A stretch of DNA of 64,000 nucleotides from Limnobaculum xujianqingii (GTDB taxonomy: Bacteria > Pseudomonadota > Gammaproteobacteria > Enterobacterales > Enterobacteriaceae). Made by a program: the position numbers and the translations under genes. Positions 37,970 to 61,536 of this stretch are shown here, piece by piece. Under the pieces are notes generated by a model. It saw only the letters and a program-made list of their open reading frames with translations. It was not told the origin of the DNA and ran no database searches. The stretch covers positions 1,507,501 through 1,571,500 of the forward strand of contig NZ_JABMLK010000001.1 of assembly GCF_013394855.1 (NCBI RefSeq). Reading direction: 5' to 3'. Numbering within the stretch: position 1 is the stretch's first letter; each line of letters begins with the position of its first letter.

Positions 37970-38530
37970 TTAGGGTATGTGTCGAATAATTTTTGCTGGA
38001 GCTCCAGCAAGTACAGTATTTGTAGGAAAGGATTTTGTTACAACTGAATTAGCTGCTACAATGACATTATCACCAAGATTAACTCCTGATAAAATTTTCG
38101 CATTATCACCTAACCAAATATTCTTCCCTAAAATAGTTTCTCCTTTAACAATTAAGGGTCTTTCTTTTGGCAGTACACTTAACTCATTGTGATCAAATGA
38201 ATGGTCATGATCAGTGATTAAAACATCACTTCCAATAAGGCAGCCATCACCAATGATTACTTTACATACAGATGCCACATGTACATTTTGACTAAATGAA
38301 ACATTATTGCCAATTCTGATCTCTCCACTATTAATAGCATCAATCCAAGTTTGATTACCCAAATTAACATTATATCCAATGAAAATATTTTGTGTTCCAC
38401 GTAATATAGAATTATCACCAACACACAATTTTTTAGTATTAAACGCTTTTTGATAAAAAAGATTTCTAATTCTTCTATATGGATACCATAACATTCTAAT
38501 AAAAAGAATAAGTGGTCGCTCGTTATGCAC
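37970..38530 (-). CDS. Hexapeptide-repeat O-acetyltransferase (WbbJ-like)
   Basis: A 186-residue left-handed beta-helix acyltransferase. Imperfect hexapeptide repeats run from about 45 to 170 (IRIGNN, VIIGDG, ILGKNI), the catalytic His lies in ITDHDHSFD, and the end AGAPAKIIRHIP is typical. It probably O-acetylates a sugar of the cluster A repeat unit in the cytoplasm. It is the last gene of cluster A, 34 bases after the preceding glycosyltransferase. Confidence 0.85.
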   Translation of the reverse strand: MHNERPLILFIRMLWYPYRRIRNLFYQKAFNTKKLCVGDNSILRGTQNIFIGYNVNLGNQTWIDAINSGEIRIGNNVSFSQNVHVASVCKVIIGDGCLIGSDVLITDHDHSFDHNELSVLPKERPLIVKGETILGKNIWLGDNAKILSGVNLGDNVIVAANSVVTKSFPTNTVLAGAPAKIIRHIP

Positions 38531-38564
38531 TAGTATTACCTCCTAATTCGATAGCAACCTATCA

Positions 38565-39323
38565 TTAATGATGATACTTATTTTTTAAAATTAAAAACCT
38601 AACTATACTTTTAACATGCCAAATAAAACTTTTAGACAATAATTTTCTATTTGAATGCGCAGCCAAGTGGACTGCTTGATATTGAGGATAGTATATAAGC
38701 TCTTTTCCATATATTTTATAAGCTCTATAACAAATATCAATATCCTCACAATACATAAAATATTTTTCATCAAAGCCATTTAATAACTTAAATAATGTAG
38801 CTCTAAACATCATAAAAGAACCTGAAGCCCAATCAACTTTAATTGGTTCTGTAACTTTATTTTTATCAATAATTGTTTTATTGATACCAAAGATATATGA
38901 ACTGATAAAATCAAATAAACTAGGGTAATGCCTTATAGAATTATCATGGTTAATATAATTAAAATCTTTAAAGAGATTAATTGCTGCAAAACAATGAGTG
39001 TTTTTGGTCATATTATTTATTAGTGAGGAAATAACTGATGGCTCAATACTTACATCTGGATTTAAAACAAGAAACCAGTCATCATCATTGAGATCCCTTT
39101 GAAAATAATGATTGAAAACGATATTATTATTCTGTCCAAAACCATACTTTTCTTTATTTGAAAGATAGTTTATTTTATTCTCGTCACACCACTCATTTAA
39201 CCCTGACTCGGCTACATTATCTATAACATAAACAGTAAATAATTTAGCTAATTTTGGCAAGCATTGTAGTCTTTTTATCACAGCAAAATGGTTATGTGAT
39301 ACAACAGAGATTACTACATTCAC
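38565..39323 (-). CDS. GT2 glycosyltransferase, WbbL-like rhamnosyltransferase
   Basis: A 252-residue GT-A fold enzyme that resembles E. coli WbbL, the rhamnosyltransferase of O16 antigen (shared YGFGQNNNI, LNPDV, VDWASGSFM and KYFMYCEDIDICYR-type segments). The metal-binding motif is LNPDVS near residue 90. It probably transfers rhamnose made by RfbC/RfbD, perhaps onto WecA-made GlcNAc-PP-undecaprenol. Its ATG overlaps the stop of the preceding gene by four bases. Confidence 0.85.
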   Translation of the reverse strand: MNVVISVVSHNHFAVIKRLQCLPKLAKLFTVYVIDNVAESGLNEWCDENKINYLSNKEKYGFGQNNNIVFNHYFQRDLNDDDWFLVLNPDVSIEPSVISSLINNMTKNTHCFAAINLFKDFNYINHDNSIRHYPSLFDFISSYIFGINKTIIDKNKVTEPIKVDWASGSFMMFRATLFKLLNGFDEKYFMYCEDIDICYRAYKIYGKELIYYPQYQAVHLAAHSNRKLLSKSFIWHVKSIVRFLILKNKYHH

Positions 39324-40333
39324 GTTATTGCACCTTTAATTATATCTTTGGCATATTTTAGCCACAACTCATGCTCACTCTTTAAAGTTAGCTCTCTAAT
39401 ATTTAAATCCCCAGAGTTTTCAGACCCAAGTATACTTATATTGCTAAGTTGATTAAAAATAATAGTAGAAATCTCATTTTCATCACAATCATAGTCAACA
39501 ATACTTATACAATCAGAATCTAATTTCTGTAAAAATAATGCCGATGGAATAGCAGTAGAAATAACATAATTACCAGCTACATAAGCTTCAAGATTTGGCA
39601 AGCCCAACCCTTCCCATTTAGATAAACATATAAATATTTTTGATTGCATCAACAAAGAAAAGAATTCACTTCTTGATTGGTTTCTGATGATGAAATTAAA
39701 TTTCTCATCTTGTCTTGATGCATTAATTGCCAGAACATTAACTCCTTGAGCATATAACAAACGCATAACCTCAAGCGTCTTTTTGGGATTTTTATATTCC
39801 CCATCACGTATAATTGCCACAACATCATAGTGAAACTTGCTATTTGTATCCCTGTCATATTTAAAAGCTTCAGCTATATAAGGGAAACCTATAACAGGTG
39901 TACTTATTTGTAACAAATCCGCTAGAGTCTGATTCGTTACAATGACATTTTTCGCAGTCAGATAATTCTTCCAAAAAAAACGGCCTAGCCATTTTAAACG
40001 ATTAGGATAAAAATCAACCTCAATATCTTGAATCAAAGCATACTTGGATTTTTTAATAAAATTAAATACTGATGTTAAATGATGTGTGGCAACATAATTT
40101 TTCAAAAATAATGCATGCAAAGAAAGTAAAAAAAATGCTGTTATATTCGCTAAAGAATTTAAAATACCTCTGGTTGGCTTAACCAATTTAACATCGTTGA
40201 CATGAAGAATACTAAAGCCAGAGCAACAATAAACATCTATTGTATGAGATGAAAGGTGTCGCGCTAATTCTAAACTTACTAAGTTCCCTCCAGATAAAGC
40301 AAACCTAGGAATTGAAAAATATATTTTCGTCAC
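39320..40333 (-). CDS. GT4-type glycosyltransferase
   Basis: A 337-residue GT-B fold protein. The N-terminal FALSGGNLVSLELARHLSS is the acceptor-domain glycine-rich region; the C-terminal SKWEGLGLPNLEAYVAG is the E-x7-E nucleotide-sugar motif. The sugar is not predictable. It overlaps the next gene (four bases) and follows the previous one by four bases. Confidence 0.82.
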   Translation of the reverse strand: MTKIYFSIPRFALSGGNLVSLELARHLSSHTIDVYCCSGFSILHVNDVKLVKPTRGILNSLANITAFFLLSLHALFLKNYVATHHLTSVFNFIKKSKYALIQDIEVDFYPNRLKWLGRFFWKNYLTAKNVIVTNQTLADLLQISTPVIGFPYIAEAFKYDRDTNSKFHYDVVAIIRDGEYKNPKKTLEVMRLLYAQGVNVLAINASRQDEKFNFIIRNQSRSEFFSLLMQSKIFICLSKWEGLGLPNLEAYVAGNYVISTAIPSALFLQKLDSDCISIVDYDCDENEISTIIFNQLSNISILGSENSGDLNIRELTLKSEHELWLKYAKDIIKGAIT

Positions 40334-40337
40334 CTCA

Positions 40338-41174
40338 CTACCCCCATAAATATTTCCAATCCCTATATTTCAAAGCCATATAAAATCTGTGGATTACGAA
40401 ATATGAAGTAACCATTAATTTCTTAAAAACTGTATCCCCAAAAACTATCGTTTTTGATTTGATCATCTCTTTATATCTTAGCCTTAATTTTTCGGAGTTT
40501 TCATTCAATGTTGATAATGTCAAATGGTGATTAAAACTGTATTTCATAACATACATCTTTCCTAAATAACGCCTGGCGTGACGCATAATATCGTCATCAG
40601 TACAATAATTTCTTATACTTGGATTATATGAAAAATCAGTTCTTACCACAAAATCAAGGCAAATAATCATTCCACTATTAATAGCCGAAATATCTAATCG
40701 AGTAAATCCATAAGGTGGCACATCGAAATATGAACCTTTGACAAAAAATATACGTGTAGGACTTACAACTTTAGAATGATAATAAATAATTGGTAGAATG
40801 ATATCAGGCGAAAACTCCGTTATAACTTGCTCAAGCTCAGAAAAATAAGCAATATCAAACTCTGAATCTTGATCAAGCAAAATAACATAATCACTACCTC
40901 CCTTAATATTACTGAGAGTCTTGTTATACAATGCTGATAACGCAACGTTTTCTGGTGTATTAATATACTGGACATTAACATTTAATCGTTCAAAATCAGC
41001 AATAACCAAATCAACATTATCGCTATTAAAATTTTTTTCGCTATTATCCCAAAAAATTACATCATAATTTATTTTTGTTTTTTCCACAATCGAGAATGAT
41101 GTAACTAATGATTTATATGTTTCAGTATAGAGAATATTTTCATTATAAATTACAACAAGAATACTAATTTTCAT
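40338..41174 (-). CDS. GT2 glycosyltransferase (rhamnosyltransferase-like)
   Basis: A 278-residue GT-A fold enzyme with the nucleotide-binding start ISILVVIYNE, the metal motif LLDQDSEF (about 97-104) and YCTDDDIMRHAR. DQDS-containing proteins of this size are often rhamnosyltransferases in O-antigen clusters; the linkage is unknown. It overlaps the wzy gene by 11 bases. Confidence 0.8.
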   Translation of the reverse strand: MKISILVVIYNENILYTETYKSLVTSFSIVEKTKINYDVIFWDNSEKNFNSDNVDLVIADFERLNVNVQYINTPENVALSALYNKTLSNIKGGSDYVILLDQDSEFDIAYFSELEQVITEFSPDIILPIIYYHSKVVSPTRIFFVKGSYFDVPPYGFTRLDISAINSGMIICLDFVVRTDFSYNPSIRNYCTDDDIMRHARRYLGKMYVMKYSFNHHLTLSTLNENSEKLRLRYKEMIKSKTIVFGDTVFKKLMVTSYFVIHRFYMALKYRDWKYLWG

Positions 41175-42447
41175 ATATAATTAATTCTTTCGATATTATT
41201 GATGAGTTATATATAAGCCAAATGAAAAATGCCATCATTATCCTTTCAGAAAAAAACACTGGTCCTTTTAATACAAAACTAAAAATCAACCCTATAAATA
41301 AAAAGCAAAAAGCATACAGTTGAATTTTATTTTCTACTTTCAGATATCTAAAATAACTTGTAATAAAATGGGTTGCATATACAAAAACAAATAACAACCC
41401 ACAAATTCCAAAAGCAATGAAATTAAGAAGTATTCCAGAATCAGTGCTATATAAAAAATTATATTGCTCACTTAATCCAGGTTGTGCCCAAAATCCAGTT
41501 CCTATAAATACTGGTACATTCCATGGTATAAAGAGATAGCTATCAAATAATTCATTTGTAGAAGCCGTTTCAAGAGTTCCATTTTCAATAAAGTTATAGA
41601 TAGGCTCAAATACAAACCTTAAAAAGACATTAAATTTATCTACGCCTAAAACAGCAGTCAACAAAGCAACAGAAATAAACATGCAACTAATTAAGCAAAA
41701 AAGATAGAATAACTTTCTTTTTGAAATACTAAATAGCAATATGAAAACCGAAAAAACCAAAATAAAACCACTTCTTCCTGCAATTAGCGAAAGGGCAGCC
41801 AACAAAGAAGTCACAATTACAAATTTAACATTATCCCTATACTTAAGAGATAGACACCAATTTGAAAACATAAAATATATAAGTCCATAACAAATTGATG
41901 TGTCATATATAGATAACCCTGCCAATCCCGTAGCTCTAAAATGTCCCTGTTCAGCTAAAATCTTCCATTCATTAGTTAAGTCTATAATTGAATTAAATAA
42001 AGTACGAAATGAAGGTAATGATAACTGTGCAATTATAACTAGCAACTGTATAAATAAAGAAAATAATACTGCTTTAATTAACAAACCCTGATAAGTTTGA
42101 AAATTCTCCTTAGATATTTTCAATGCAATATTACGAATAAATAAACAACAACCCAAAGGTATAATTAAAGCCTTAAGTACATAGCGTAATATGATAAATA
42201 ATGAATCAGTATTTTGGCCAACAAAAAAAGAAACCAAACACATTATTAATAATACTGTGATGAATATAATTTCATTACGAAGAGTATTAGGTATTTTATA
42301 TTTGAATATGCATGTTGAAAATCCTAAAAATGCAATAATTAGTGGGGGGTAAACTTTAATTCCACTTATTATATAGCTGCCAGAAAATAAGCTAAAAAGG
42401 ACAATTACATTTAGGAAAAACTTACTAAAACAACTAAATGCATTCAT
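41164..42447 (-). CDS. wzy: O-antigen polymerase Wzy, cluster A
   Basis: A 427-residue, very hydrophobic protein with about 10-12 membrane helices and a large loop around RATGLAGLSIYD and LIAGRSGF, which fits Wzy polymerases joining repeat units on the periplasmic side. Sequence conservation in the family is low, so the call rests on topology, these motifs and its place among wzx and wzz. It overlaps the following glycosyltransferase gene by 11 bases. Confidence 0.78.
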   Translation of the reverse strand: MNAFSCFSKFFLNVIVLFSLFSGSYIISGIKVYPPLIIAFLGFSTCIFKYKIPNTLRNEIIFITVLLIMCLVSFFVGQNTDSLFIILRYVLKALIIPLGCCLFIRNIALKISKENFQTYQGLLIKAVLFSLFIQLLVIIAQLSLPSFRTLFNSIIDLTNEWKILAEQGHFRATGLAGLSIYDTSICYGLIYFMFSNWCLSLKYRDNVKFVIVTSLLAALSLIAGRSGFILVFSVFILLFSISKRKLFYLFCLISCMFISVALLTAVLGVDKFNVFLRFVFEPIYNFIENGTLETASTNELFDSYLFIPWNVPVFIGTGFWAQPGLSEQYNFLYSTDSGILLNFIAFGICGLLFVFVYATHFITSYFRYLKVENKIQLYAFCFLFIGLIFSFVLKGPVFFSERIMMAFFIWLIYNSSIISKELIIYEN

Positions 42448-42563: not shown

Positions 42564-43817
42564 TCATGTGCTGATTTTATATATAATACGCTCTAAGGTA
42601 TCTACTTGCACTTTTGCTGAAGTTGTCTTCAAGGCAAACTCTCTAGCTTGAAATTTCATTTTATCAACTTCATCAACATTTTTAGAAATAAAAGATTTTA
42701 TTGCCTCAGCTAATGCACTTGCATTAATATCATCAGCAAGGAACCCTGTTTCACCATCAATGATAAGATCTTCCGCAACACCCATTTTAAATGAAATTAC
42801 AGGTACACCTGACATCATGGATTCATTTATCATCATTGGACCTGCATCTTCAATAGAAGAACAAATAAAAACATCTGCTAAGTTATAAAGATATGGATAA
42901 AGAGTCTTATCTTTTATAAATTTTAATTTTGTATGAGAAACATTATTTAAACTAAAATCACTATCGCCAACAGTTAATATTGATATGCCATCCAGCAAAA
43001 ACCCATCATTTTCGAGAATACTTAAGGCATCGACTAAATACTTATATCCCTTTCTGGGAACATTTAATGATTGAGCCCCTACAAATAATACATATTTATC
43101 TTTTGGCAATTCTACTGATAATTTATTTTGTGCAACAAGCTTTGATCTTGGAAAAAACAATTCATCATCGATACCAATCAATAGTTTTTCTCGCCCAAAC
43201 TTTGCATTAATAGCACTCAAATCATATTTTTCGTCTAACCATTTACTAGCCGATAAGAAAATACTATTTATTTCTCTAAACTGTTTTATTCTAGAAGTTA
43301 AAACTCTCTCAGCTATATTTATTAAATTCGGATATTTTATTGCAGGACATCCAGTGCAAGTTGTTTGATAACCAATACACTCCCAAGGATAATGGCATCC
43401 TCCGGTTAACATTCCCGCATCCATCAAATAAAAAGCTACTGGGACTTGATAATATTTCTGTAATTCATATATATCTTTATCAGATAAAAATCCGGACACA
43501 TAATAAACAATAATCATATCAGGCTTAAATTTAGTTTTCTTTTCTATTTCAGAAACACTAAATGTTGTACCATATAATAAATATGCACGATCTTTATCTG
43601 TTTTTCGTCTAACAATTAGTCTACGTAAGACCTTATAAAAAAAGTTGAAGAAAGATGTTCTTTTTTTGGACATTTGATAAACATCATCATCCATAGATCC
43701 TTTTTCTGCTACATACATTAAAGAATTATGATTATATTTTATTAAATTTAAATGAGTCCTAAATGCACCAAAAAATGCCCCACGATCATCACCAGTAGAT
43801 AGATGTAAAATATTCAA
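42564..43817 (-). CDS. GT4 glycosyltransferase, WcaC-like
   Basis: A 417-residue GT-B enzyme beginning NILHLSTGDDRGAFFGAFR. A cysteine-rich segment (GGCHYPWECIGYQTTC, then CPAI; about 140-163) is typical of WcaC-like polysaccharide glycosyltransferases, and the C-terminal half holds FVGAQS and the donor-binding EDAGPMMINESMMSG. The sugar transferred is unknown. It lies between wzx and wzy of cluster A. Confidence 0.83.
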   Translation of the reverse strand: MNILHLSTGDDRGAFFGAFRTHLNLIKYNHNSLMYVAEKGSMDDDVYQMSKKRTSFFNFFYKVLRRLIVRRKTDKDRAYLLYGTTFSVSEIEKKTKFKPDMIIVYYVSGFLSDKDIYELQKYYQVPVAFYLMDAGMLTGGCHYPWECIGYQTTCTGCPAIKYPNLINIAERVLTSRIKQFREINSIFLSASKWLDEKYDLSAINAKFGREKLLIGIDDELFFPRSKLVAQNKLSVELPKDKYVLFVGAQSLNVPRKGYKYLVDALSILENDGFLLDGISILTVGDSDFSLNNVSHTKLKFIKDKTLYPYLYNLADVFICSSIEDAGPMMINESMMSGVPVISFKMGVAEDLIIDGETGFLADDINASALAEAIKSFISKNVDEVDKMKFQAREFALKTTSAKVQVDTLERIIYKIST

Positions 43818-43864: not shown

Positions 43865-45382
43865 CTAATTTAATGTTATTTTTGAAAAAAACAAATGAAT
43901 ATATCTCTTTACAAGAAAATATATTAATAGCGTTATAAAGAAATTAATCAATGGTGGTATAAATAAATCAAGAATAGGTACTGATGTAATATATTTTGTA
44001 TTTGAAAATATATAAAATATACTTGTAGAAAGTATAAAAACTCCGCCAAAAATCAATGCAAAAAAATTAATAAATTTATTCATTAATTTATGGACACAGT
44101 ACCCCCCCCAAAAAATCATAAATAATAAAGAATGTATAAATACAAATTTAGCACTAATCACTGCGCCATAATACTTAGCAATAAGAACTGACAATGGAAT
44201 TGTTAGTGATGAGTAAATAATATATGCATAAAAATGATTTTTTAATTTTCCTTGTGCATACAAGATAATAAATACAAAATTCATAATCCCTGCAATCAGT
44301 GCAGCAGCAATCAACCATTTTGCATAACCATTAATATTCGCACCTAATAAGTCACTTCTTATCCATAATGAAATTATATCATCACCAAAAAGAAAAAAAT
44401 AAGGAATAATAGGAGAAAGTAGCGCAACAAAAACAAATAATGATATATTATATATTCTTAAAAATTCTTTTTCATTTTTATCTTTATATAACACACTTAG
44501 TCTTGGAAGCAAAAACTGTGTTAATGGAACAGTAAAAATTGATATGGTAGTAGCTAGCTGAGCAGCAATTTGGTAATTAGCATATTCTTCTAATATTAGG
44601 TACTTTGACAATACTACTTTATCAATTTGTGTCGCAATTATCCAGATAATTGATAATCCAGATAATTGTAATGAAAACTTCGCAATCTTTAGCAAAGAAA
44701 ATTCATCTGCAATTTTATCAAATTGCGTAGTTTCATTTATTTTTTTCTTAGTTAACTTGATATTAAAAAATACTAATAATATCCAAATAAAACTAATAAT
44801 AGAAAAATCTAGTATTGATACAAATAATATTATTTTAAAAAAAGTATAGAGATCATTACTCACGTTTTTTATTGCTAAATAAGAACCACAATAAAATAAT
44901 GTTGTATATATAATGCCCCAAAGAGCAAGAATATCTTGTCTCTCCATGCCATTTATAAAACTTGAAACAAATGATTTCAAATACATTATTGATAAAATAA
45001 TGCCAATTAACTTTATGCAATAAATAGCTTCAGGATAATTAATTGATGTTTTTAACCACCCAATAACAATATAATCAGAGCTGAAATAAAATGAAACAAT
45101 AATTATGCATGCTATAATTAAAAAAATAAAAAATACTTTAAGAAATAAACTTATTACCTTTTGAAAAGAATATTGATTAAATCGATTTGTAGAAACAATT
45201 TTTATAAATGCACTTCCAATACCAGCATCTAATATCCCAATCAATCCTATTAGCATTGTAAAAAAAGAAACCAATCCATAATTTTCTGCACCTAGAATAC
45301 CGATTGTATATGGAACAAATATTAAAGGAATTATTGCTCTATAAATTTGTGATGAATAAAGTATTGTTATTTTTTTTAACAT
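43865..45382 (-). CDS. wzx: O-unit flippase Wzx, cluster A
   Basis: A 505-residue polysaccharide transporter of the MOP/PST superfamily with about twelve to fourteen membrane helices; the start KKITILYSSQIYRAIIPLIFVPY and GAENYGLVSFF are typical. It flips undecaprenyl-linked repeat units across the inner membrane. Codon use is very AT-rich compared with flanking core genes. Confidence 0.88.
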   Translation of the reverse strand: MLKKITILYSSQIYRAIIPLIFVPYTIGILGAENYGLVSFFTMLIGLIGILDAGIGSAFIKIVSTNRFNQYSFQKVISLFLKVFFIFLIIACIIIVSFYFSSDYIVIGWLKTSINYPEAIYCIKLIGIILSIMYLKSFVSSFINGMERQDILALWGIIYTTLFYCGSYLAIKNVSNDLYTFFKIILFVSILDFSIISFIWILLVFFNIKLTKKKINETTQFDKIADEFSLLKIAKFSLQLSGLSIIWIIATQIDKVVLSKYLILEEYANYQIAAQLATTISIFTVPLTQFLLPRLSVLYKDKNEKEFLRIYNISLFVFVALLSPIIPYFFLFGDDIISLWIRSDLLGANINGYAKWLIAAALIAGIMNFVFIILYAQGKLKNHFYAYIIYSSLTIPLSVLIAKYYGAVISAKFVFIHSLLFMIFWGGYCVHKLMNKFINFFALIFGGVFILSTSIFYIFSNTKYITSVPILDLFIPPLINFFITLLIYFLVKRYIHLFFSKITLN

Positions 45383-45527: not shown

Positions 45528-46082
45528 CTATAAATACTGATTAGTCTCTAAAGAAAAACTCTTTGCATTCATATCTTTATGCGATAAAATAATCTTATTT
45601 CTATTAATTGGCCAATTAATATTTAAACTAGGATCATTCCATGCGATAGTACCTTCAGCAGCAGGCATATAATAACTTGTTGTTTTATATAAAAACTCAG
45701 CTATTTCACTTAGAACGACAAAACCATGCGCAAAACCTTCAGGTATCCACATAAATCGTTTATTTTCAGCAGAAAGATTGCACCCAACCCACTGACCAAA
45801 AGTAGCTGAATCATGGCGGATATCTACCGCTACATCAAACACTTCACCCACAACACACCTAACCAACTTACCTTGAGCATGAGGTGATAACTGATAATGC
45901 AAACCGCGCAAAACTCCCATCATTGACTTTGAATGATTATCTTGTACAAAATCAATTTTACGACCAACAACCTCTTCAAAAACCTTCTGATTAAAACTTT
46001 CAAAGAAAAACCCTCGTTCATCTCCAAAGACTTTTGGTTCTAAGATTAACACATCAGGAATTGTTGTCTTAATAACGTTCAT
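45528..46082 (-). CDS. rfbC: RfbC (RmlC), dTDP-4-dehydrorhamnose 3,5-epimerase
   Basis: A 184-residue cupin epimerase, third step of dTDP-L-rhamnose synthesis. Catalytic residues are visible in FVQDNHSKS, GVLRGLHYQ (His) and AEFLYKTTSYY (Tyr). The intergenic stretch just upstream contains a remnant of rfbA, so an rfbB-D-A-C operon has been cut down. RfbD is encoded further upstream in the same direction. Confidence 0.95.
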   Translation of the reverse strand: MNVIKTTIPDVLILEPKVFGDERGFFFESFNQKVFEEVVGRKIDFVQDNHSKSMMGVLRGLHYQLSPHAQGKLVRCVVGEVFDVAVDIRHDSATFGQWVGCNLSAENKRFMWIPEGFAHGFVVLSEIAEFLYKTTSYYMPAAEGTIAWNDPSLNINWPINRNKIILSHKDMNAKSFSLETNQYL

Positions 46083-46302: not shown

Positions 46303-47211
46303 CTATACACGATTCGCCGTCATAGAAAATAGTTCAGCCAGCATTCGTTTAACACCCACTTCCCATTCAGGTAATATTAAATTAAACGTTTGCTGAAACT
46401 TTAGCGTATTCAGGCGTGAATTATGAGGACGATTTGCAGGAGTTGAATAGGAGCTTGTTGGGACAGGGTAAATATTTTCTACCGCCAGAACTAAGCCCGC
46501 TTTTTCTGCTTCATCAAAAACAAGCCGAGCATAATCAAACCATGTCGTCGTTCCCGCAGCAACAAGATGGTAAAGTCCACCGACTTCAGGTCTACTTAAC
46601 GCGGTGCGAATAGCATGAGCGGTACAATCAGCTAGTAATTCAGCTCCTGTTGGCGCACCAAATTGGTCATTAATTATCGAGAGCGAATTACGTTCTTTTG
46701 CCAGCTTTAGCATTGTTTTCGCAAAATTATTTCCTTTCCCTGCGAATACCCAACTAGTACGAAAAATGAGATGTTTTGTACAATTCTGTTGAACAGCTAG
46801 CTCACCCGCACGTTTAGTTTCACCATATACATTTAATGGCGCAGTCATATCAGTTTCTAACCATGGTTTCTCACCATTACCTGGGAAAACATAATCAGTA
46901 GAATAATGAACCAACCAAGCGTTTAACTTCTCAGCTTCTTTAGCAATGATTTCTACACTAATAGCATTTAATAAGAGAGCAAAATCAGGTTCACTTTCTG
47001 CCTTATCAACAGCTGTGTGTGCTGCAGCGTTAACAATCACATCGGGCCTCACCCGACGGACTGTATCGGCCACACCTTCCGGATTGCTAAAATCGCCACA
47101 ATACTCTGTAGAATGAATATCAACTGCAATAACATTCCCCAATGGTGCTAGTGAACGTTGCAATTCCCAACCTACCTGCCCTGTTTTGCCAAACAGAAGA
47201 ATTTTTGTCAT
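46303..47211 (-). CDS. rfbD: RfbD (RmlD), dTDP-4-dehydrorhamnose reductase
   Basis: A 302-residue short-chain reductase making dTDP-L-rhamnose from the RfbC product. The nucleotide site is FGKTGQVGWELQ and the catalytic Tyr-Lys pair is in YGETKRAGE; NAAAHTAVDKAE is characteristic. The start is ATG 47211; a TTG one codon upstream is unlikely. No intact rfbA or rfbB is present in the window. Confidence 0.95.
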   Translation of the reverse strand: MTKILLFGKTGQVGWELQRSLAPLGNVIAVDIHSTEYCGDFSNPEGVADTVRRVRPDVIVNAAAHTAVDKAESEPDFALLLNAISVEIIAKEAEKLNAWLVHYSTDYVFPGNGEKPWLETDMTAPLNVYGETKRAGELAVQQNCTKHLIFRTSWVFAGKGNNFAKTMLKLAKERNSLSIINDQFGAPTGAELLADCTAHAIRTALSRPEVGGLYHLVAAGTTTWFDYARLVFDEAEKAGLVLAVENIYPVPTSSYSTPANRPHNSRLNTLKFQQTFNLILPEWEVGVKRMLAELFSMTANRV

Positions 47212-47280
47212 CAAAATATTTCTCTATAATTCTGTGTAATTCAATTTTTTGTCATAAACACAGTTTTAAACACTTCTAAT

Positions 47281-51221: not shown

Positions 51222-53152
51222 TATTTATTATTCTCATACCATAACTGAAACATTAATATATTCCACAATTTATGTTGCCAGTTTCTCTTACCTGAAAGGT
51301 GTTCTTCCCAAAGTTTTTTTACTACCTTGTGTTCCAAAAAGCCTTCTTCAATCAATCTTTTTTCATCAAGTAACGCTTCAGCCCATTCCTTTAAAGGGCC
51401 TCTTAGCCAAATTCCAATAGGAATACCAAACCCTTTCTTAGGTCTTTCAATTAAATTTCGAGGAACATATTTATATAAAACCTCACGCAGGCACCATTTA
51501 GAAGTATTGTTATAAATCTTATATTCAACAGGTAGCGATAGTGCAAATTCAACAATCTCACGCCCTAAAAAAGGAACTCTGGTTTCTAATGATACAGCCA
51601 TAGCTGCCCTATCTACTTTTACTAGAATATCATCCGGTAGATATGTCAGCATATCCAGAACCATCATATTATCAATATCATGTGATAAAGATGGCAATCT
51701 ATCTCTATTTTTCATTATATCAGTAGATTTTGTTGCACCTAAAACCAATTCCTCAGGGAAAAGCCAATGCACAATCAAGTTATTATAAACTTCCATGACA
51801 CTATCTGAAGTTATAATATGAGTAGACTTATATAGCTTATCGCCAAAATTTGATATCCTATATTTTTTAGGCAATAAACTACCCAGGAAATTCCACACAG
51901 ATATAGGCAAAAGAAATATAAGCTTAGACAGCAAAATTCTACTCAACTTAGGGAAACATACTAACCTTTTCCATAAATTATATGCCATTGTATAACGTGT
52001 ATAACCAGCAAATAACTCATCACCAGCATCGCCAGAAAGTGAGACTGTAACATGTTCTTGAGTCATCTTTGAAACAAGATATGTTGGAATTTGTGATGAA
52101 TCAGAAAAGGGCTCGTCATATATTTCATGAAGTAAAGGTATTGTATTTAAAACATCTTCAGGTGAGATATATAATTCCGTATGCTGCGTACCTAAATGTT
52201 CTGCAATACGTTTAGCATAAATGGCTTCATTGTATTCTTCCTCATGAAACCCTATTGAAAATGTTTTAACAGGGGTATCAGATCGAGCCTGCATTAATGC
52301 CACAATAATTGACGAGTCAACTCCTCCAGATAAAAAAGCCCCCAAAGGTACATCGGCAATCATTTGCTGCCCTACAGATTTTTTCAATAATTTTTCAAGG
52401 GTAAGCACAGCTTCGTTTTCTGTACCATCAAATAGTTTAATGTTTTTACATATAGATTTGACTGACCAATATTCGGTTGTCTGAATTGAATAATCATCCA
52501 AATTAAGCGTAATGAAATGGCCTGGAAATAGTTTGTAAATATCTTTGTAAATTGAATGAGGGGCGGGTATATAACTATATTTCAACATCGTAGCGATAGA
52601 TTCACGGTCTATTTCACCAATAAAGTCCGGATGACATTTAAATGATTTAATTGTAGAACCAAAGAAAAATATTTCTTTTTGCCAGCCATAATATAATGGT
52701 TTTTCCCCCATTCTATCTCGGCCTAATATCAATGTGTTCATTTCCCTGTCAAATAAAGCAAAAGCAAACATGCCATCAGACATTTCTAATGTTTTCTGAA
52801 CACCCCAATGTTCAAAACCAGTGAGTAAAGTCTCTGTATCCGAATGACCATGCCATTGTATATCAAAGAACTCATTGCATAATTTATTTCTTAACTCCAA
52901 GTGATTATAAATTTCACCATTATATGCAATTACATATTTACCCGAATGAGAAACAGCTGGCTGGTAACCTGACGAAGAGAGATCAACAATTGCCAATCGT
53001 CGATGAGAAAAACCCAACTTAGCAGTACGTTCTACCCAAACACCACTACTATCAGGCCCTCGATTAAATAAAGCATCTCCCATATTTTTCAAAATCAGTT
53101 CAGCATCGATTGGAAAATTACCACGATTAACAAAACCTGAAAAACCACACAT
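51221..53152 (-). CDS. Asparagine synthase-like amidotransferase (WbpS-like)
   Basis: A 643-residue class II glutamine amidotransferase. Cys2 (MCGFSGF) is the glutaminase nucleophile and RGPDSSG and [12 protein letters not shown] belong to that domain. The synthetase half carries the ATP PPi loop SGGVDSS (about 270). In O-antigen clusters such proteins, for example Pseudomonas WbpS, are thought to amidate hexosaminuronic acids, which fits the TviB/TviC-like genes of this cluster. It is one-base coupled (TAATG) to genes on both sides. Confidence 0.85.
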
Positions 53153-54270
53153 TAATCATTCTTCCTTAATTTTTCATAAAGTAGTTCATACTGTTCAGAT
53201 ATTTTCTCCATCGAATAGCAATCTACTATTCTCTTAGAAGCCGTAGCACCCAAGGATAACTGAATTTCTGGTCTATTCAGTACATATTCAATACTTGATG
53301 TTAAGGACTCTATTGTGGGCTCTGAAAAAACAACGGAATCTCCACCAAGTACACGAGAATCACCAACATCAGTCGCAACACAAGGCAATCCAATAGCCAT
53401 AGCTTCTGCTAACCCATTAGGAAATCCCTCTGAGCGGGAAGGCATACAAAATAGATCAAATGCAGATAAACAATCTCTGACATTATTATGCTCGCCTAAT
53501 AAAATAAAAAAATCTTGTAATCCCAGGTCATTAATAAGTTGAACTAATTCATCATTAGACTTATCACATCCCCTACCTACTAAGATAAATTTAAGATTTG
53601 AAAATTTTTGAACTAAAGGGTTTACTGCTTTAACAAAAATGTCTTGCCCCTTATCATTATGATAGCGTCCAACACATCCAATGACTTTAGTCTCAGTATT
53701 TATAGCCCAAGAGTTTCTTAACAAACCCCTCGCATTCTGATTATGCTTCCATTGATTAATATCATAACCATTTGAGATAACCATCATTTTTCTTTTTGCA
53801 TAACCATAAGATATATGTGACTTTCTGGCCGCATCTGCGACACAAATAATATATTTGGGTATCACATATGACAATAGAGCTCCAAGTTTCATTATAACAT
53901 AAGTAGCTTTATTGCCTGTTGGTACAAAAGTACAACGAATTCCCCATATAATATTTTTGCAACCAACCAAAAATGCAGATACTCCACCAATAAAATTAGC
54001 GTGATACATCCATGTTTGCACTATTGAAGGATTAATTTCATGCAGTAACTTCGATAATTTAAAAATAACAATGGGAACAGATAACAAGCCAGTTAGACCC
54101 AAACTATATACTTTGAAACCTTTAAGTTTTAACTCATTACCAATATGGCCGACATCAGTTAATGAAATAATCACAACATCATCTTTATTATTTGTCCTTG
54201 ACGTAACCAAACGGCCTAAAGACATTTCAGCACCACCAACATCTAATCCAATTATAATATGAGCAATCAT
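53152..54270 (-). CDS. GT4 glycosyltransferase, cluster B
   Basis: A 372-residue GT-B enzyme. [17 protein letters not shown] is the acceptor-side glycine-rich motif; [16 protein letters not shown] and [19 protein letters not shown] with its E-x7-E pair bind the nucleotide sugar. Donor and linkage are unknown. Its stop overlaps the start of the asparagine synthase-like gene. Confidence 0.83.
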
Positions 54271-54286: not shown

Positions 54287-55276
54287 TCATTTTAGTAAAA
54301 GAAACCACTGACTAATGAATAGAATCATACACAATACAATAAAAAGAAGCCGATAATCTTTCCTAGTCGAAAACATAGATAAAAAAACAAATAAAAACGC
54401 TGACTCAAACACTCTTGCTGTCACTGCTAAAGTAAAATAAGTAGACAAATAAAAACCAACTGAAAATAATGAATAGAATTCATTCCTTATCCAGTTACTA
54501 CTTTGAAGGATAAAAAGAAAGAAAAATACACTCCAAATTAAAAAACCTAAACCACTACCATCAGGTAATACATTGACATATTGTTCAGCCTGTCGAGCAC
54601 CGCTAAACTGTATTATGTAGGGAAAAAGAAAAGTTAATAAAAAGGTAAAAATGATATACAATAACATTACTTCTCTTGGCGATAAGATAAAACCGCTAAA
54701 TTTATATTTCTTAATTAATTCTGAAAAAATATAAATAGGTAATAAAAAGAAAAAACTCGCATGAATAAAAGGCGTCATAAACAATAATAGGTATTTAAAT
54801 CTATTATTTACAAGGAAAGCGAAAATAAAAATAGCAACCGCAACACCTTGTCTCAAATGTGTCGTGTGATTCTTTAATACCTGAGGCATCAATAAAACAA
54901 GAATAAGAATAAATAAACTTGTTTTACTATAACCTATTCTCAAGAATGAATAAGATACAAGGAATGAACTAAAAAAGATAATAAAACGAACAGTATTCTC
55001 ACCACCAAATATAGAAGATATTAAAACATTCAAATACAACCAAACTGGCTCATTTGTTAAATATGGTAAAAAACCATCATTAAGATTTCTTTCTAAGATA
55101 ATTCTGGAGCTATTAGCGTAGTTAAGATAATTATCCCTATCCTGAAACACATCCATTGGTAATAAAGTCAAAATAATAGCGTAAAAAAGAGATATTAAAA
55201 CGCATATAAATATAACGTTTTTTGACGCATTATTTTTTAAAAATGATGGTTGTGATACTGGATATACAATAGCCAT
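54287..55276 (-). CDS. wzy: EpsG-family polymerase (Wzy), cluster B
   Basis: A 329-residue membrane protein with about nine helices. DVFQDRDNYLNYANSS, then NEPVWLYLN and THLRQGVAVAIFIFA are hallmarks of the EpsG/Wzy family that polymerises surface polysaccharide. It differs in type from the cluster A polymerase. It sits between two glycosyltransferase genes. Confidence 0.8.
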   Translation of the reverse strand: MAIVYPVSQPSFLKNNASKNVIFICVLISLFYAIILTLLPMDVFQDRDNYLNYANSSRIILERNLNDGFLPYLTNEPVWLYLNVLISSIFGGENTVRFIIFFSSFLVSYSFLRIGYSKTSLFILILVLLMPQVLKNHTTHLRQGVAVAIFIFAFLVNNRFKYLLLFMTPFIHASFFFLLPIYIFSELIKKYKFSGFILSPREVMLLYIIFTFLLTFLFPYIIQFSGARQAEQYVNVLPDGSGLGFLIWSVFFFLFILQSSNWIRNEFYSLFSVGFYLSTYFTLAVTARVFESAFLFVFLSMFSTRKDYRLLFIVLCMILFISQWFLLLK

Positions 55277-55341: not shown

Positions 55342-56640
55342 CTATGGAGACTCTCTAACAACAGAGGATAGTGTTTTCCCACTCATTCTACAGCGAATGG
55401 AATATAAAAACAAACTACAAGCATAACGGATACGACCGATAAGAGATGATTCATTTTTCACACTGGAAATATCAATTTCCCTGAGCGAAATTCCGTTAAA
55501 GTTGTCCACACAACTTTCTATAGAAAATAGTTCTGCTTTATTTTTATTTTTTTCCGATAATGAAGCTATTTCGTTATCGTTTAATTTCATATAGTTATAA
55601 ATCAACTCCTCAACCCCTACTTTATCTTGCGGCATGCCATCTTCGTTGTAAGAAAAACCTTTTATATCACAAAAAAAGCCATATGTCTGTGGGGTTTCGA
55701 TATTCTCTATACCTATAATAGAAGGTATACCTAAGCCAGCCGCTTCAACAATTGCTGTACCTGAACCAATAAATAAATCGTATTGCATGATAGTTGAACA
55801 AAATTTAGAATAGTCCAAGTTCCCTCTTAAACTAATATTATCACTCAACCCTAATGTATTAATTTTGTTATTTATCTCATTATATAGTGTCCCATTACCA
55901 TAGATATCATATATGACCTTGCACCCGTGTTGTTTCAAATTAGCAACAACATCCACCATCCAAAGATTATATTTTTTAAAATACTCTAATCGACCAACTG
56001 AACATATTCTAATGCTATGGTTATCGTTTGGCCTTTCCATACTTTGATTAACAATGGTATTTTTACTTATTACACCCAAAGGGAAAAGATTTACTTTTGA
56101 AAAATCTCTTTTATTATGAGAATTATAAAAATTTATCATGTTATCATTGAAAAATATGATATTTTTATCACTCAGTATATTGAAAAATATCTTTCTATTG
56201 ACCATCTCAAAATAAGGTAAATTCTTATCAAGGCCTTTCCATACGAACTCTAATGAATGATACAAACCTATTGACAAAGGTATATTTTCCCCAAGCTTTT
56301 TAAAAAAAATAAATGAAAAAACAGCACACCAACCACAAGATACATGAACATGTTCCGCGTTATGAAATATATTGAAAACCTTATTCATATTTAATGGCAG
56401 AAAAAAATATGCATGAGGAGGTAATATCTTTGTCAAAAATCCCCCAAAAAATAACAAATCAGAAATAAAATATACTGAAGCATATTTTCTAGCCTCACTT
56501 AACAAATCAGGATTACTTGAACTTTCATCAGACAAGAGAACAATCGTTGTTTTTAATCCTCTTTTCAATCGCTCTTTAGCCATTCTAATGAAAAATGTTT
56601 CTACACCACCTAATGCTAATGACCCATGTACAAATATCAT
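55342..56640 (-). CDS. GT4-type glycosyltransferase, cluster B
   Basis: A 432-residue GT-B protein with FVHGSLALGGVETFFIRMA at the N-terminus and SVGRLEYFKKYNLWMVD plus IGSGTAIVEAAGLG in the donor domain. The substrate is unknown. Its start overlaps the wzx stop by four bases. The C-terminal ~50 residues form an unassigned basic extension. Confidence 0.82.
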   Translation of the reverse strand: MIFVHGSLALGGVETFFIRMAKERLKRGLKTTIVLLSDESSSNPDLLSEARKYASVYFISDLLFFGGFLTKILPPHAYFFLPLNMNKVFNIFHNAEHVHVSCGWCAVFSFIFFKKLGENIPLSIGLYHSLEFVWKGLDKNLPYFEMVNRKIFFNILSDKNIIFFNDNMINFYNSHNKRDFSKVNLFPLGVISKNTIVNQSMERPNDNHSIRICSVGRLEYFKKYNLWMVDVVANLKQHGCKVIYDIYGNGTLYNEINNKINTLGLSDNISLRGNLDYSKFCSTIMQYDLFIGSGTAIVEAAGLGIPSIIGIENIETPQTYGFFCDIKGFSYNEDGMPQDKVGVEELIYNYMKLNDNEIASLSEKNKNKAELFSIESCVDNFNGISLREIDISSVKNESSLIGRIRYACSLFLYSIRCRMSGKTLSSVVRESP

Positions 56641-58055
56641 TTTATAAACCTAGAAATTATATATCTATAAGAATCTAAATACACATCATAGAAAAATATG
56701 ATGGAAATAAAGATTGGAATTAACCAAACTGAATACATTAAATACTGATATTCTGGACCACATAAACTGAAGATAATTGATGTAATAACCAATATAAAGA
56801 CAGAGAATGATATTTTGACAGTAGGCAATTTAATCCAAATCCAACTAGAAAATAATACTTTCAAAAGGAAAAAAAAATAAAATGCTATGACTGTTGATAT
56901 TGCGGCACCTTTTGCGCCTAATAAAGGAACAAAATTATAGTTACAAATTACATTTACAACCAAAGCCATTATCGTTATAAAAGATAGATAAATAGTTTTC
57001 CTTTTAATACTTATACCAATACCTGTGATCTCTGATAAAACAATAAGAAAAGAAGGCATTACACAAACTACAATAATATAGTTAATACCTGAGTAATTCT
57101 TAGGTAAAATATCATCAATGATCCAAGAAAAACACCCAACTAAAGTCATTAAAACAATAGCAACAACCGTCATTCTATTTCCAATGATGATTAGTTTCTC
57201 ATGGTCAAAACCATTAGCTATCCATTTATATATCATTGGTTGCCATATGGTTGAAAATACTTGTTGAACTAATACTGATATCGCAGCGATATTTACAGCC
57301 ATTGTATAAATGCCCAACTCAGATAATGTTGAATATTTTGTTATAAATATACGGTCTGAGTAACTTAGCCCCCAAAAAGCAAGGCTACTTAAAATTAATG
57401 GAATACCAAAAGCAGATAACTTAATTATTTTTTCATATTCAATCTTTTGTTTTATACCATCTTTTATTATTTTTCTGAGAAAATAAAATAAAACGATGAC
57501 AACAGCGCTCCAACTTATGATATGAACTAAAGACAATGTTATAAAATCATCAGTTCCTTTCTTCCATAAAACAAAAAAGAGCAAAATTAATAGCACTAAC
57601 TTTGGTATTATACGCGTAATTGAGTAAGCAATTGGTTTTTCTTCCATTCGAAGAAAAACAGAGAAGAAACGCTCAAAAAACAAAACAAACACAAAAGAAG
57701 ATAAAAGAAATAGTAGATAGTAATTATTATACTCAAATATTTTTTTGAGATATGTCTCAAAAAATAAAAATAATATTACAAAAAATAATAATAATAATGA
57801 TAGGCCTGGTAATATGCAAGCATTAAAGAGTGAACATCTACCCCTTTTATCTACTTCATTATACTCTCTAACATAAGCTTGATCTAAACCAAGACTAAAT
57901 ATAACTACAATTAAAGATGATATTATTTGCAATAAACCAAAACGGCCTATATCTTCTTGGCTAAAGATATAGGCAGTCAATGGCAATGAGACTAATGTTA
58001 AAGCGGCTGATATTATTGGCCCAAAACTATATGAACCTATTGTTTTAATATTCAT
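56637..58055 (-). CDS. wzx: O-unit flippase Wzx, cluster B
   Basis: A 472-residue MOP-superfamily polysaccharide exporter with about twelve to fourteen membrane segments (GPIISAALTLVSLPLTAYIFSQEDIGRFG near the start, given here only as its core LTLVSLPLTAYIFS). It is unrelated in detail to the cluster A Wzx and so probably handles a different repeat unit. It lies between the TviC-like epimerase and a glycosyltransferase. Confidence 0.87.
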   Translation of the reverse strand: MNIKTIGSYSFGPIISAALTLVSLPLTAYIFSQEDIGRFGLLQIISSLIVVIFSLGLDQAYVREYNEVDKRGRCSLFNACILPGLSLLLLFFVILFLFFETYLKKIFEYNNYYLLFLLSSFVFVLFFERFFSVFLRMEEKPIAYSITRIIPKLVLLILLFFVLWKKGTDDFITLSLVHIISWSAVVIVLFYFLRKIIKDGIKQKIEYEKIIKLSAFGIPLILSSLAFWGLSYSDRIFITKYSTLSELGIYTMAVNIAAISVLVQQVFSTIWQPMIYKWIANGFDHEKLIIIGNRMTVVAIVLMTLVGCFSWIIDDILPKNYSGINYIIVVCVMPSFLIVLSEITGIGISIKRKTIYLSFITIMALVVNVICNYNFVPLLGAKGAAISTVIAFYFFFLLKVLFSSWIWIKLPTVKISFSVFILVITSIIFSLCGPEYQYLMYSVWLIPIFISIIFFYDVYLDSYRYIISRFIK

Positions 58056-58101: not shown

Positions 58102-59139
58102 TTAACATTGGTTAAAATCTTTCTTAATATACCATGGCATTGAAATTTCTAAACCTTGTTTCACTGTATAGTTAGGTATATACCCAAGCTGACTACATAT
58201 TTTAGATATGTCTGCCTGAGAATGTTTTACATCACCAATACGGAAATCCTGATAAATTGGTTTTTTACTATGAAAAACGTCATTCTCTTTTAAATAAAAT
58301 TGAATATACTTAACCAATTGATTTAACGTCGTTCTATCTCCAACAGCCACATTAAACACTTCACTTTTAACTGGAGAACTTAACGCTGCAAGAATATTAG
58401 CTTGAACTATATTTCTAATAAAACAAAAATCTCTACTTGTTTCACCATCACCATTAATAATGACATCACTCCCATGTATCATTTGTGATATCCATTTGGG
58501 TATCACTGCTGCATATGCACCATTAGGGTTTTGACGAGGACCAAATACATTGAAATAACGTAGACCAATGCAATGGAATGAATAGCAACGACTATATACG
58601 TCCGCATATAATTCATTAACATATTTTGTTACTGCATAAGGTGATAGAGGATTACCAATACGATCCTCTACTTTTGGTAATGCAGGATGATCGCCATAAG
58701 TAGAACTACTTGCTGCATATACAAAACTTTTAACTCTTTCCTCTTTTGCAGCTGTTAATATATTTAAGTACCCTGAAATATTCGTAGAGTTTGTTGTAAT
58801 TGGATCATTTATTGAACGAGGAACAGAGCCCAATGCAGCCTGATGTAATACATAGTCCACTCCCTTTACAACTTTCTCACACGTAGAGTAATCTCTAATA
58901 TCTCCTTTAAAAAAAGTAAAATTTTTCCATTGAGTTTCAGAAACTAAACTTTTAACCTCATCAAGATTATATTGAAATCCTGTAGAAAAATTATCTAATC
59001 CTATAATTTTTTGGTCTAACTTTAGTAAATTTTCCAATAGATTAGATCCGATAAATCCAGCTACACCTGTGATTAACCAAGTCTTAGTCTCTCTCTTCAA
59101 ATTTTCAAACGCTTTATCAATTGCAGTCATAACATTCAT
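58102..59139 (-). CDS. tviC: TviC/WbpP-like UDP-sugar 4-epimerase
   Basis: A 345-residue extended short-chain dehydrogenase closely resembling TviC of the Vi capsule ([18 protein letters not shown] NAD motif, [41 protein letters not shown]). The catalytic Tyr-Lys pair is in [16 protein letters not shown]. It interconverts UDP-GlcNAc(A) and UDP-GalNAc(A). Together with the adjacent TviB-like dehydrogenase it should yield UDP-GalNAc-uronic acid. Confidence 0.9.
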
Positions 59140-59158: not shown

Positions 59159-60442
59159 TTACAAGCGTATATCTGATTCTTCTTTTGAGAACAGATACTT
59201 TAGATCATATAAAACGTGTTCTTTCTTACCTAAGTTACGGATTGCTTCAACGCCAATATCTTTGAATTCCTGGTGTGCGACAGCGACTACAATCGCATCA
59301 TAACTATTATTAGAAACTTTATCTTTCAAATTAATATTATATACATGCTTAGCTTCTTCAATAGAAGCCCAAGGATCATAAACATCAACGTTTATACCAT
59401 ATTCTTTTAATTCATTATAAATATCAAAAATCTTCGTATTTCTAACATCAGGGCAATTCTCTTTAAATGCTAATCCCATTATTAATACGTTTGCACCATT
59501 AACATGTATACGCTTATGTAGCATGGATTTTACTAATTGAGATGAAACATAACGTCCCATTCCATCATTAATTCTGCGACCAGCTAATATAACTTCTGGA
59601 CGGTATCCGATAGATTGCGCTTTATGAGTTAGATAATATGGATCCACACCAATACAATGACCACCAACAAGACCTGGACGGAAAGGTAAGAAATTCCATT
59701 TAGTACCAGCGGCTTCTAATATAGCTTCAGTATCGATTCCCATTTTATTAAAAATAATCGCTAATTCATTGATTAGTGCTATATTCAAGTCTCGTTGAGT
59801 ATTTTCAATAACTTTTGCAGCCTCTGCAACTTTAATTGAAGATGCTTTATGTGTACCAGCAGTAATAATTTGCTGATAAAGAGTATCAACAAATGAAGCG
59901 ATTGCTGGAGTCGAACCAGACGTAACTTTTTTAATATTTGTTACTCGATGAGTTTTATCACCCGGATTAATTCTCTCTGGGCTATAGCCAACAAAGAAAT
60001 CCCTATTGAATTTCAGTCCTGATACCGTTTCAAGAATAGGAACACAATCGTCTTCAGTTGCTCCAGGATATACTGTTGATTCATAGATAACTACATCATT
60101 ATATTTTATTACTTTTCCTAATAATTCAGAAGCCTTAATCAGTGGGCTAAGGTCGGGTTGATGATGTTCATCAATAGGTGTTGGTACTGTAACAATATAA
60201 ATAGATGCTTTTTTTAAATTTTCAATATCACATGTATACTGGAGATATTTAGCGTCTCCTAGCTCAATAGAAGAAACTTCTAATGTGTGATCTTTTCCTG
60301 AAGTGAGTTCAGTAATACGCTTAGCATTAATATCGAAACCTATTGTATTAAATTTTTTACCAAATTCTACCGCCAAAGGTAATCCTACATAACCTAACCC
60401 AACAATAGCAATTACATCGCTCTTTAATAACTCTCTAGACAT
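59159..60442 (-). CDS. tviB: TviB/WbpO-like UDP-N-acetylhexosamine 6-dehydrogenase
   Basis: A 427-residue NAD-dependent nucleotide-sugar dehydrogenase. The Rossmann motif is [16 protein letters not shown], the catalytic Cys lies in [16 protein letters not shown], and Lys in [15 protein letters not shown]. The resemblance to Vi-antigen TviB extends to the C-terminus ([15 protein letters not shown], SDIRL). It oxidises C6 to a uronic acid. It is the first intact gene of cluster B, preceded by a ruined wzz. Confidence 0.92.
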
Positions 60443-60496
60443 TTTTAAGAAACCTTAACTTAATTTATATAATATTAAATTATCAATTGAAACTTA

Positions 60497-60850
60497 TTAA
60501 TTCAAAGCATTGAGTCTTTTCGACTCATTATAAATAATCACAATCCCGAAACCAATTATTCTATCAAGAATAACACCTATAATTAGAATTAATCCTATTT
60601 TTGGCTGTTCTTTACTTATAGGTACAATTGGACTTTTTAAATAGCTAACTATCTGACTATAGCACTATTAGCTTAAAAATTATCTAAACTAATGAACTGC
60701 TTTTGATAATGTATCTAGTTCTATAGGTCATTTATTAATGCTTTCAGCCATAATCGCTAATACATCTTTACCTAAAAGAAATTAAGATGCCCCATCAAGT
60801 TTACTTTAATTCAATCCATTTAGGTTTAATTATATTAGATTCTTCGGTCA
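60497..60850 (-). pseudogene. wzz pseudogene (C-terminal half), cluster B
   Basis: On the minus strand, broken frames encode GKDVLAIMAESINK and YLKSPIVPISKEQPKIGLIL..., which align with GKDALSAMSESIEK and YLKSPISPTNKDKP in the intact Wzz at 47281-48357. Stops and frame changes separate them. The frame ends ESKRLNALN at 60497. The N-terminal half is missing, with IS1-like sequence upstream. Cluster B once had its own chain-length regulator. Confidence 0.85.
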
Positions 60851-60944
60851 TATATTTATATTGTAGATGGCATTACAATATATGATGCTAACGCTCGATA
60901 AATATATCAATGCTATTATCATGCATTTCTACGATTTTGAGTAC

Positions 60945-61345
60945 CTTTGCCGACTTTGATTCTTTTGTTGCCAACAAATTATCACGTTTCATCCACTTCA
61001 CTAATTAGCTGAATTGCCAGATTATCCAGTAGAAGAGAGATTACGTTTTGTGGCGAGAATTCTTTAATGTGCACAACGGCATTAGTGTCGATATGCAATC
61101 AGTTTCTCGAATACCGGTATTACTTATAACAAGAGCAATAATTTGTGTTTTTATTCACTATTTGCAGGCACAATATTCAAGTTGAAACTTCTACAGCATA
61201 CCTGACAACAATAATGCTGATGTCCAGTACTCCCTTGCCCATACCTTTTCACTAGAGCTATTTTTGCTTACAAAGTGGGCATTTCAAAAATCCACCTCAG
61301 CTATCAGAACCTCTTAAATAAAAACAGGGTTTATCTGATGATCTC
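60945..61345 (-). mobile_element. IS1-family remnant
   Basis: Minus-strand fragments in several frames match IS1 InsA (LKCPLCK; GSTGHQHYCCQVCCRSFNLN; NTGIRETDCI...LKNSRHK) and the start of InsB (LLLDNLAIQLISEVDET, two stops, FVGNKRIKVG). The order is correct but every frame is broken. It lies between the cluster B JUMPstart and the wzz pseudogene. The outer boundaries are approximate. Confidence 0.75.
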
Positions 61346-61500
61346 CGGACTTAATACATAACTTAAATTAGAATACAAGTAAATCCAAATATCCAATATT
61401 AATTGGATTCATTTGCAATTAATACAATGGTTATATTTTCATGATACTAATGTGACATTTTTGTATTATTCTAATTGACAATAGTTTAACTATTTTATAT

Positions 61501-61536
61501 ATGCTACCGCCTTGGCTTAATAGCTACCAGCACACT
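61501..61536 (-). promoter_or_regulatory. JUMPstart/ops element of cluster B
   Basis: The minus strand reads GTGCTGGTAGCTATTAAGCC followed by AAGGCGGTAGCAT, an excellent match to the JUMPstart CTCTGGTAGCTGTTAAGCCA...GGCGGTAGCGTG. It is about 1.06 kb upstream of tviB, with IS1 debris and the wzz pseudogene in between, and should recruit RfaH to the cluster B transcript. Confidence 0.92.

Follow-up and report, generated by a model that had tools for sequence, protein, structure and literature searches.

The window analysed here, a stretch of 64,000 nucleotides from Limnobaculum xujianqingii, holds a surface-polysaccharide locus between the cysteine genes cysZ and cysK that is divided into two operons, A and B, each with its own Wzx flippase and Wzy polymerase. 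From the sequence it appears probable that transcription of both operons involves RfaH and leads to two Wzy-dependent polymers. The window belongs to contig C1 of a genome of 3 contigs and 4.76 Mb (G000; the other Limnobaculum genomes compared are G001, G002 and G003), and among named sequences its CysZ is closest to that of Limnobaculum allomyrinae (96%). The 18 locus genes are all on the minus strand and are read from the cysK side, 8 of them in operon B next to cysK and 10 in operon A next to cysZ. The initial annotation had described about 24 kb of same-strand polysaccharide genes with two different flippases, two polymerase types and seven glycosyltransferases, and all of these were recovered. 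Internal stops were found in none of the locus genes, coding density is 98.6% in B and 94.1% in A, and the two Wzy have different predicted folds, one FtsW/RodA-like and one GT-C.

Gene content of operons A and B

The locus is bounded by:
36946..37704, plus strand: cysZ, left boundary (PF07264)
61853..62821, plus strand: cysK, right boundary (PF00291)

Operon B (60442 to 50109) comprises, in reading order:
59159..60442, minus strand: B1, TviB-type UDP-GlcNAc 6-dehydrogenase (NF011729, 659.6 bits, over the cut-off of 592)
58102..59139, minus strand: B2, WbpP/WbgU/TviC-like 4-epimerase (PDB WbpP, 516 bits; NF011728, 485.7, below the cut-off of 760)
56637..58055, minus strand: B3, Wzx flippase (PF01943, 72 bits)
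55342..56640, minus strand: B4, GT4-type glycosyltransferase (PF00534, 24.8 bits, just below the cut-off of 26.4; 34% identical to a gene of the G048 locus)
54287..55276, minus strand: B5, Wzy of the EpsG type, GT-C (OST/PglB/ArnT-like) fold (PF14897; predicted fold)
53152..54270, minus strand: B6, GT4 glycosyltransferase (PF13692)
51221..53152, minus strand: B7, AsnB-type amidotransferase (PF00733, PF13537; TIGR01536, 460 bits, over the cut-off of 267)
50109..51221, minus strand: B8, GT4 glycosyltransferase (PF00534)

Operon A (48357 to 37970) comprises, in reading order:
47281..48357, minus strand: A1, wzz, the sole intact wzz of the locus (PF02706 over cut-off; NF012015, WzzB, 189.6 bits, below the cut-off of 267)
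46303..47214, minus strand: A2, rmlD (TIGR01214 and NF007440 over cut-off)
45528..46082, minus strand: A3, rmlC (TIGR01221 over cut-off)
43865..45382, minus strand: A4, Wzx flippase (PF01943, 71.6 bits)
42564..43817, minus strand: A5, GT4 glycosyltransferase (PF00534)
41164..42447, minus strand: A6, Wzy candidate with an FtsW/RodA-like fold (from topology, relatives and predicted fold; no Pfam match)
40338..41174, minus strand: A7, GT2 glycosyltransferase (PF00535)
39320..40333, minus strand: A8, GT4-type glycosyltransferase (PF00534)
38565..39323, minus strand: A9, GT2 glycosyltransferase (43% relative in the A half of G002)
37970..38530, minus strand: A10, hexapeptide O-acetyltransferase, WbbJ-like (PF00132; NF007240, 133.7 bits, below the cut-off of 243)

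The leaders and the sequence between the operons contain:
61691..61742, minus strand: B leader block, shared with G002 only (43 identical positions over 52 nucleotides, nt) and starting with a few bases of native spacer
61498..61536, minus strand: B JUMPStart/ops, unlike the native type (GGCGGTAGC at 61503-61511)
60963..61284, minus strand: insertion sequence (IS) relic, 67.7% identical to annotated IS1 transposases
60515..60805, minus strand: relic of a wzz C-terminus, with 6 stops in 97 codons (44% to the Wzz of G001 by tblastn on a set of four sequences, E 6e-12)
48620..50108, minus strand: degraded sequence between the operons, with no open reading frame (ORF) of 100 amino acids and transposase-like words read by eye
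48574..48601, minus strand: native O-antigen promoter TTGCGA-16-TATAAT, present in 9/9 Budviciaceae loci
48414..48450, minus strand: A JUMPStart/ops of the native Budviciaceae type (GGCGGTAGC at 48417-48425)

Operon A thus has the composition of a Wzx/Wzy O-antigen cluster, with Wzx, Wzy, Wzz, glycosyltransferases and sugar genes behind an ops element, and operon B likewise has Wzx, Wzy, glycosyltransferases and sugar genes behind ops, its wzz being a relic with stops. In the window GGCGGTAGC occurs only at 48417 and 61503, on the minus strand, upstream of each operon. The polymerase folds of A6 and B5 were read from VIA-align second-look comparisons; with Foldseek alone, neither of the two had a match at E <= 0.001. 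A6 has relatives of like length in Kosakonia (57%) and Enterobacter (55%). The context of B7 suggests that it would convert a uronic acid to a uronamide. In E. coli the best DNA match to a 3.9-kb B query covered 19% of it at 66% identity and corresponded to one glycosyltransferase, and any match at all was obtained in 21 of 5426 genomes.

Judged by their leaders, A and B are unequal: A keeps the putative family promoter, JUMPStart/ops and an intact wzz, and B has its own ops, a promoter-like site and a wzz relic. This relic is 38% identical to A1 and suggests that B once had its own Wzz and lost it. The earlier description of two whole loci side by side therefore stands in part only, there being two Wzx/Wzy repeat-unit operons that each have their own ops and whose halves evolve separately, of which not both are whole, as B is without a working wzz and neither has an initiating transferase, rmlA or rmlB. 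Switching between two polymers had also been suggested and is without support here, since no inversion or recombinase arrangement was seen at the locus by a repeat search, which was not a dedicated search for such arrangements and gave only AT-rich partial matches.

The relics in the B leader and the degraded sequence after B8 would also fit an operon B that is silent or decaying, left over from an earlier O-antigen type, with A alone working. This is unlikely given that all eight B genes are free of internal stops at a coding density of 98.6%, and that the B half of G002 holds Wzx, Wzy, three glycosyltransferases and LicD behind a conserved B leader. The degraded sequence itself (48.6-50.1 kb) held one relic ORF without a Pfam match and gave no plasmid match, and assigning it to IS3 is tentative, as tblastn with the rve transposase of G002 produced only a chance match elsewhere.

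The cysK-cysZ site in the Budviciaceae and the position of operon B

CysZ and CysK were searched in 295 genomes of the database family and matched in 191 and 217 genomes, respectively; the 150 matches listed for each were used, and 129 genomes were represented in both of these sets. cysZ and cysK were on one contig in all 129 of these genomes. The gap between them was 146-2167 bp (median 181) in 120 and 11.4-24.2 kb in the remaining nine, all of which are Budviciaceae, a family with the named genera Limnobaculum, Budvicia, Leminorella and Pragia. The nine loci come from four Limnobaculum, two genomes each from the genera of Budvicia and Leminorella, and G062, which was placed in the family by its close CysZ (86%) and CysK (94%). 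Both ops and wzz lie inside the gap in 9/9. On this gene content cysK-cysZ is the O-antigen-type site of the Budviciaceae, and the initial annotation's view of the site as unusual for the organism does not hold: an odd landing site was rejected by the family-wide gap survey, the interval being the family's own in every Budviciaceae genome examined. In one of these loci, that of G239 from Leminorella's genus (L116, 4561-8352), several short ORFs resemble gene fragments. No paper joining 'O-antigen gene cluster', cysK and cysZ was found in open-access full texts, a limited search that does not prove there is none; two papers mention Limnobaculum together with O-antigen, and neither cysK nor Limnobaculum occurs in the main text of a survey of Enterobacteriales (PMC7305143).

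Comparison of the intervals among relatives showed, in addition to the confinement of the large gap to Budviciaceae among the genomes compared, a tandem layout in two of the four Limnobaculum (G000 and G002), G001 and G003 having a single locus. The G002 locus has two ops, two Wzx, of which that in the A half is below the Pfam cut-off, and two Wzy, of PF14296 type in the B half and EpsG type in the A half; its B half also has the three glycosyltransferases and the LicD protein, and an IS transposase (rve) lies between the halves. The A halves of G000 and G002 share, beyond wzz, rmlD and rmlC, only one glycosyltransferase at appreciable identity (43%), and their B halves differ in gene content. 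That the two halves evolve separately is supported by these comparisons of gene sequences, two of four Limnobaculum carrying both halves and the other two carrying one. G002 has two rmlC and two rmlD in its one locus, and the rmlC-rmlD pair at the cysZ end (L119, 17311-18704) is also found in G062 (L115, 1036-2429), the genes being 85% and 73% alike between both genomes.

Predicted topology gave two polytopic proteins in each of the seven single loci and four in each tandem locus. Non-ECA PF01943 flippases, counted after leaving out one protein per genome taken as WzxE of the enterobacterial common antigen (ECA) and with a model that misses some Wzx, numbered two in G000, G002 and G048 (one of the latter at the wza site), one in G001, G003, G181, G239 and G062 (at the wza site in G062) and none in G145.

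The native cysK-to-wzz spacer is about 600 nt long, and in 9/9 native loci, that of A included, TTGCGA-16-TATAAT sits 118-175 nt upstream of ops. The A ops resembles the sites of most other Budviciaceae loci, from which the B ops differs. In G000 and G002 this spacer is split by B, its first 161 nt staying with cysK and the promoter-to-wzz part staying with A. By this alignment B is located between cysK and the putative native promoter of the older operon A, in the same insertion region in both tandem genomes. The B leader block adjoins the 161-nt block on the cysK side, ends at TATAGTC and contains a promoter-like TTGATG-17-TATAGT (61720-61692). Its alignment between G000 and G002 scored 34, whereas 1000 shuffles reached at most 17; in the seven single-locus genomes the scores were 6-9, inside the range of the respective shuffles. 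Simple promoter scans gave nothing informative, and no trace of wzz was found in the B leader of G002 (best E 3.4). The shared 52-nt leader thus suggests that the B slots of the two genomes have one origin.

On a three-protein tree of seven genomes G002 falls outside G000, G001 and G003 (support 0.79-0.91), and hence an old tandem may have been lost twice or there may have been transfer between lineages. Across 12 proteins that all four Limnobaculum share, the identity of G000 is 97.8% with G003, 97.6% with G001 and 95.5% with G002. In wzz and rmlD, by contrast, G000 is nearest to G002 (81.6% and 87.7%, versus 74.6% and 71.6% in G001), and the rmlC tree did not group G000 with G002, though pairwise rmlC identity was highest to G002 (69.8% versus 65.9%). 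Wholesale exchange of flanks between G000 and G002 was looked for and not seen, most 300-nt windows of the G000 flanks having their closest counterpart in G003 or G001. The same flanks, on both sides of the locus, speak against an assembly artefact joining the loci of two strains, for which no support was seen and which is scarcely credible with the locus inside a 3,025,282-bp contig and the same layout in G002, a separate one-contig genome.

Distant partner genes and a probable route to two polymers

Neither operon holds an initiating transferase, rmlA or rmlB. The ECA locus carries wecA (TIGR02380 over cut-off), wzzE, rmlB and rmlA, and on this distribution of genes operons A and B most likely depend on its wecA, rmlB and rmlA. 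Initiating transferase and O-antigen ligase were both found in the genome, the latter as a single Wzy_C protein, and RfaH is over its cut-off in 4/4 Limnobaculum.

Contig C2 of the same genome carries an ops-bearing wecA2-wza-wzb-wzc operon beside dsbD, without sugar-unit genes (L148, 7815-13058, minus strand). The wecA2 product scored 418 bits with TIGR02380 (cut-off 326), Wza is over its cut-off and Wzb and Wzc are below theirs. The operon with its ops is present beside dsbD in 4/4 Limnobaculum; it ends at wzc and is export-only in G000, G002 and G003, and continues in G001 with an EpsG-type Wzy, a GT2, a 10-TM protein without Pfam match, a pyruvyl transferase and a GT4. The 18 locus genes include no wza, wzb or wzc, which a group 1-type capsule cluster would contain, and the separate wza-wzb-wzc operon without glycosyltransferases is group 4-like. 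The cysK-cysZ operons perhaps depend on this putative export operon as well.

Poly_export was found in 8/9 Budviciaceae and not in G239, and because the G181 match is VexA of a Vi-like set, Wza together with Wzc was seen in 7/9. The Vi-capsule-like set of G181, a Budvicia, lies at L172 7008-19629, with TviB, TviE and VexA over their cut-offs and TviC, TviD and VexE strong and below theirs. G181 also has 14 Wzz matches, with paralogues that share 86-91% identity across the three loci compared (L172, L173 and L174); L173 and L174 also hold, close to these paralogues, a reverse transcriptase (PF00078) and repeated surface-type proteins, of which one has an invasin domain (PF21764).

The sequence directly gives which genes are present, their order, their conservation and their predicted folds, and from these we infer the following route. 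RfaH would be recruited at both ops sites, so that both operons are transcribed, and WecA of the ECA locus would start the units with GlcNAc-1-P. Operon A would build a rhamnose-containing unit with four glycosyltransferases, the dTDP-4-keto sugar coming from RmlA and RmlB of the ECA locus, and its polymer, with length set by Wzz, would be ligated by WaaL to give lipopolysaccharide (LPS) O antigen. Operon B would use three glycosyltransferases to build a unit containing N-acetylgalactosaminuronic acid (GalNAcA) or its amide; the Wzx of B would flip this unit and the Wzy of B would polymerize it. The resulting second polymer would either borrow the Wzz of A and reach LPS or be handled by Wzc and exported by Wza.

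A sharper form of this two-polymer reading, possible and overlapping with it in likelihood, makes B a capsule (K-antigen) operon acting in trans with the distant ops-bearing wecA2-wza-wzb-wzc, A alone giving LPS O antigen. The loss of wzz from B, a relic in G000 and not detected in G002, fits the use of Wzc; the export operon is conserved in all four Limnobaculum, and two of the three export-only genomes are the tandem ones. Yet G003 is export-only with a single locus, only four genomes bear on the matter, the relic suggests that B formerly had its own Wzz, and no direct link joins B to Wza. Slightly more tentative is a two-slot locus, in which slot A, with the native promoter, ops and wzz, would give LPS O antigen, and slot B, which has a conserved leader and an ops of its own but no longer a wzz, would give a capsule unit via wecA2-wza-wzb-wzc, the contents being swapped independently between species and the promoter scaffold staying constant.

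Two separate polymers are also preferred to a single polymer requiring genes of both halves. That A is without rmlA and rmlB, that B is without a working wzz and that both occupy one site might be read in favour of a single polymer, which is nevertheless very improbable: each half has its own Wzx, Wzy, glycosyltransferases and ops, the seven single-locus relatives each have just two polytopic proteins, typed as Wzx and Wzy where tested, and rmlA and rmlB were located in the ECA locus.

Relation to known systems

Wzx/Wzy O-antigen clusters of Enterobacterales lie at galF-gnd in E. coli, cpxA-secB in Proteus and hemH-gsk in Yersinia. The Limnobaculum locus resembles them in JUMPStart/ops, wzz, wzx, wzy, glycosyltransferases, nucleotide-sugar genes, low GC and content varying between species, but differs in its cysK-cysZ site, in its two tandem operons with one wzz and in drawing rmlA and rmlB from the ECA locus. 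Neighbouring capsule and O loci are known as cps plus rfb in Klebsiella and as K plus O in Vibrio parahaemolyticus, where two surface-polysaccharide clusters likewise adjoin; in Limnobaculum, however, both clusters are of the Wzx/Wzy kind, lack export genes, have an ops each and occupy an O-antigen site. In the group 4 (O-antigen) capsule of E. coli, gfcABCDE-etp-etk acts with the distant O-antigen cluster, and a Wza/Wzb/Wzc operon apart from the repeat-unit genes is common to both systems, whereas the Limnobaculum export operon adds a second WecA and ops, and its link to B is hypothetical. WbpO and WbpS are part of the UDP-GalNAcA(amide) pathway with WbpP. B1 (over the TviB cut-off), B2 (close to WbpP/WbgU) and B7 (AsnB-type) recall this pathway and TviB/TviC of Vi, from which B departs in that B2 is below the TviC cut-off, B7 is only of the general AsnB type and Wzx/Wzy stand in place of ABC export genes.

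The Budviciaceae gain an O-antigen-type site, not seen as described in the literature searched, that is useful for typing. With two Wzx/Wzy systems and one Wzz in one locus, the tandem would be a natural test of how Wzx, Wzy and Wzz separate units begun by the same enzyme, of whether a capsule operon can reside at an O-antigen site, and of whether one site can serve two surface sugars per cell.

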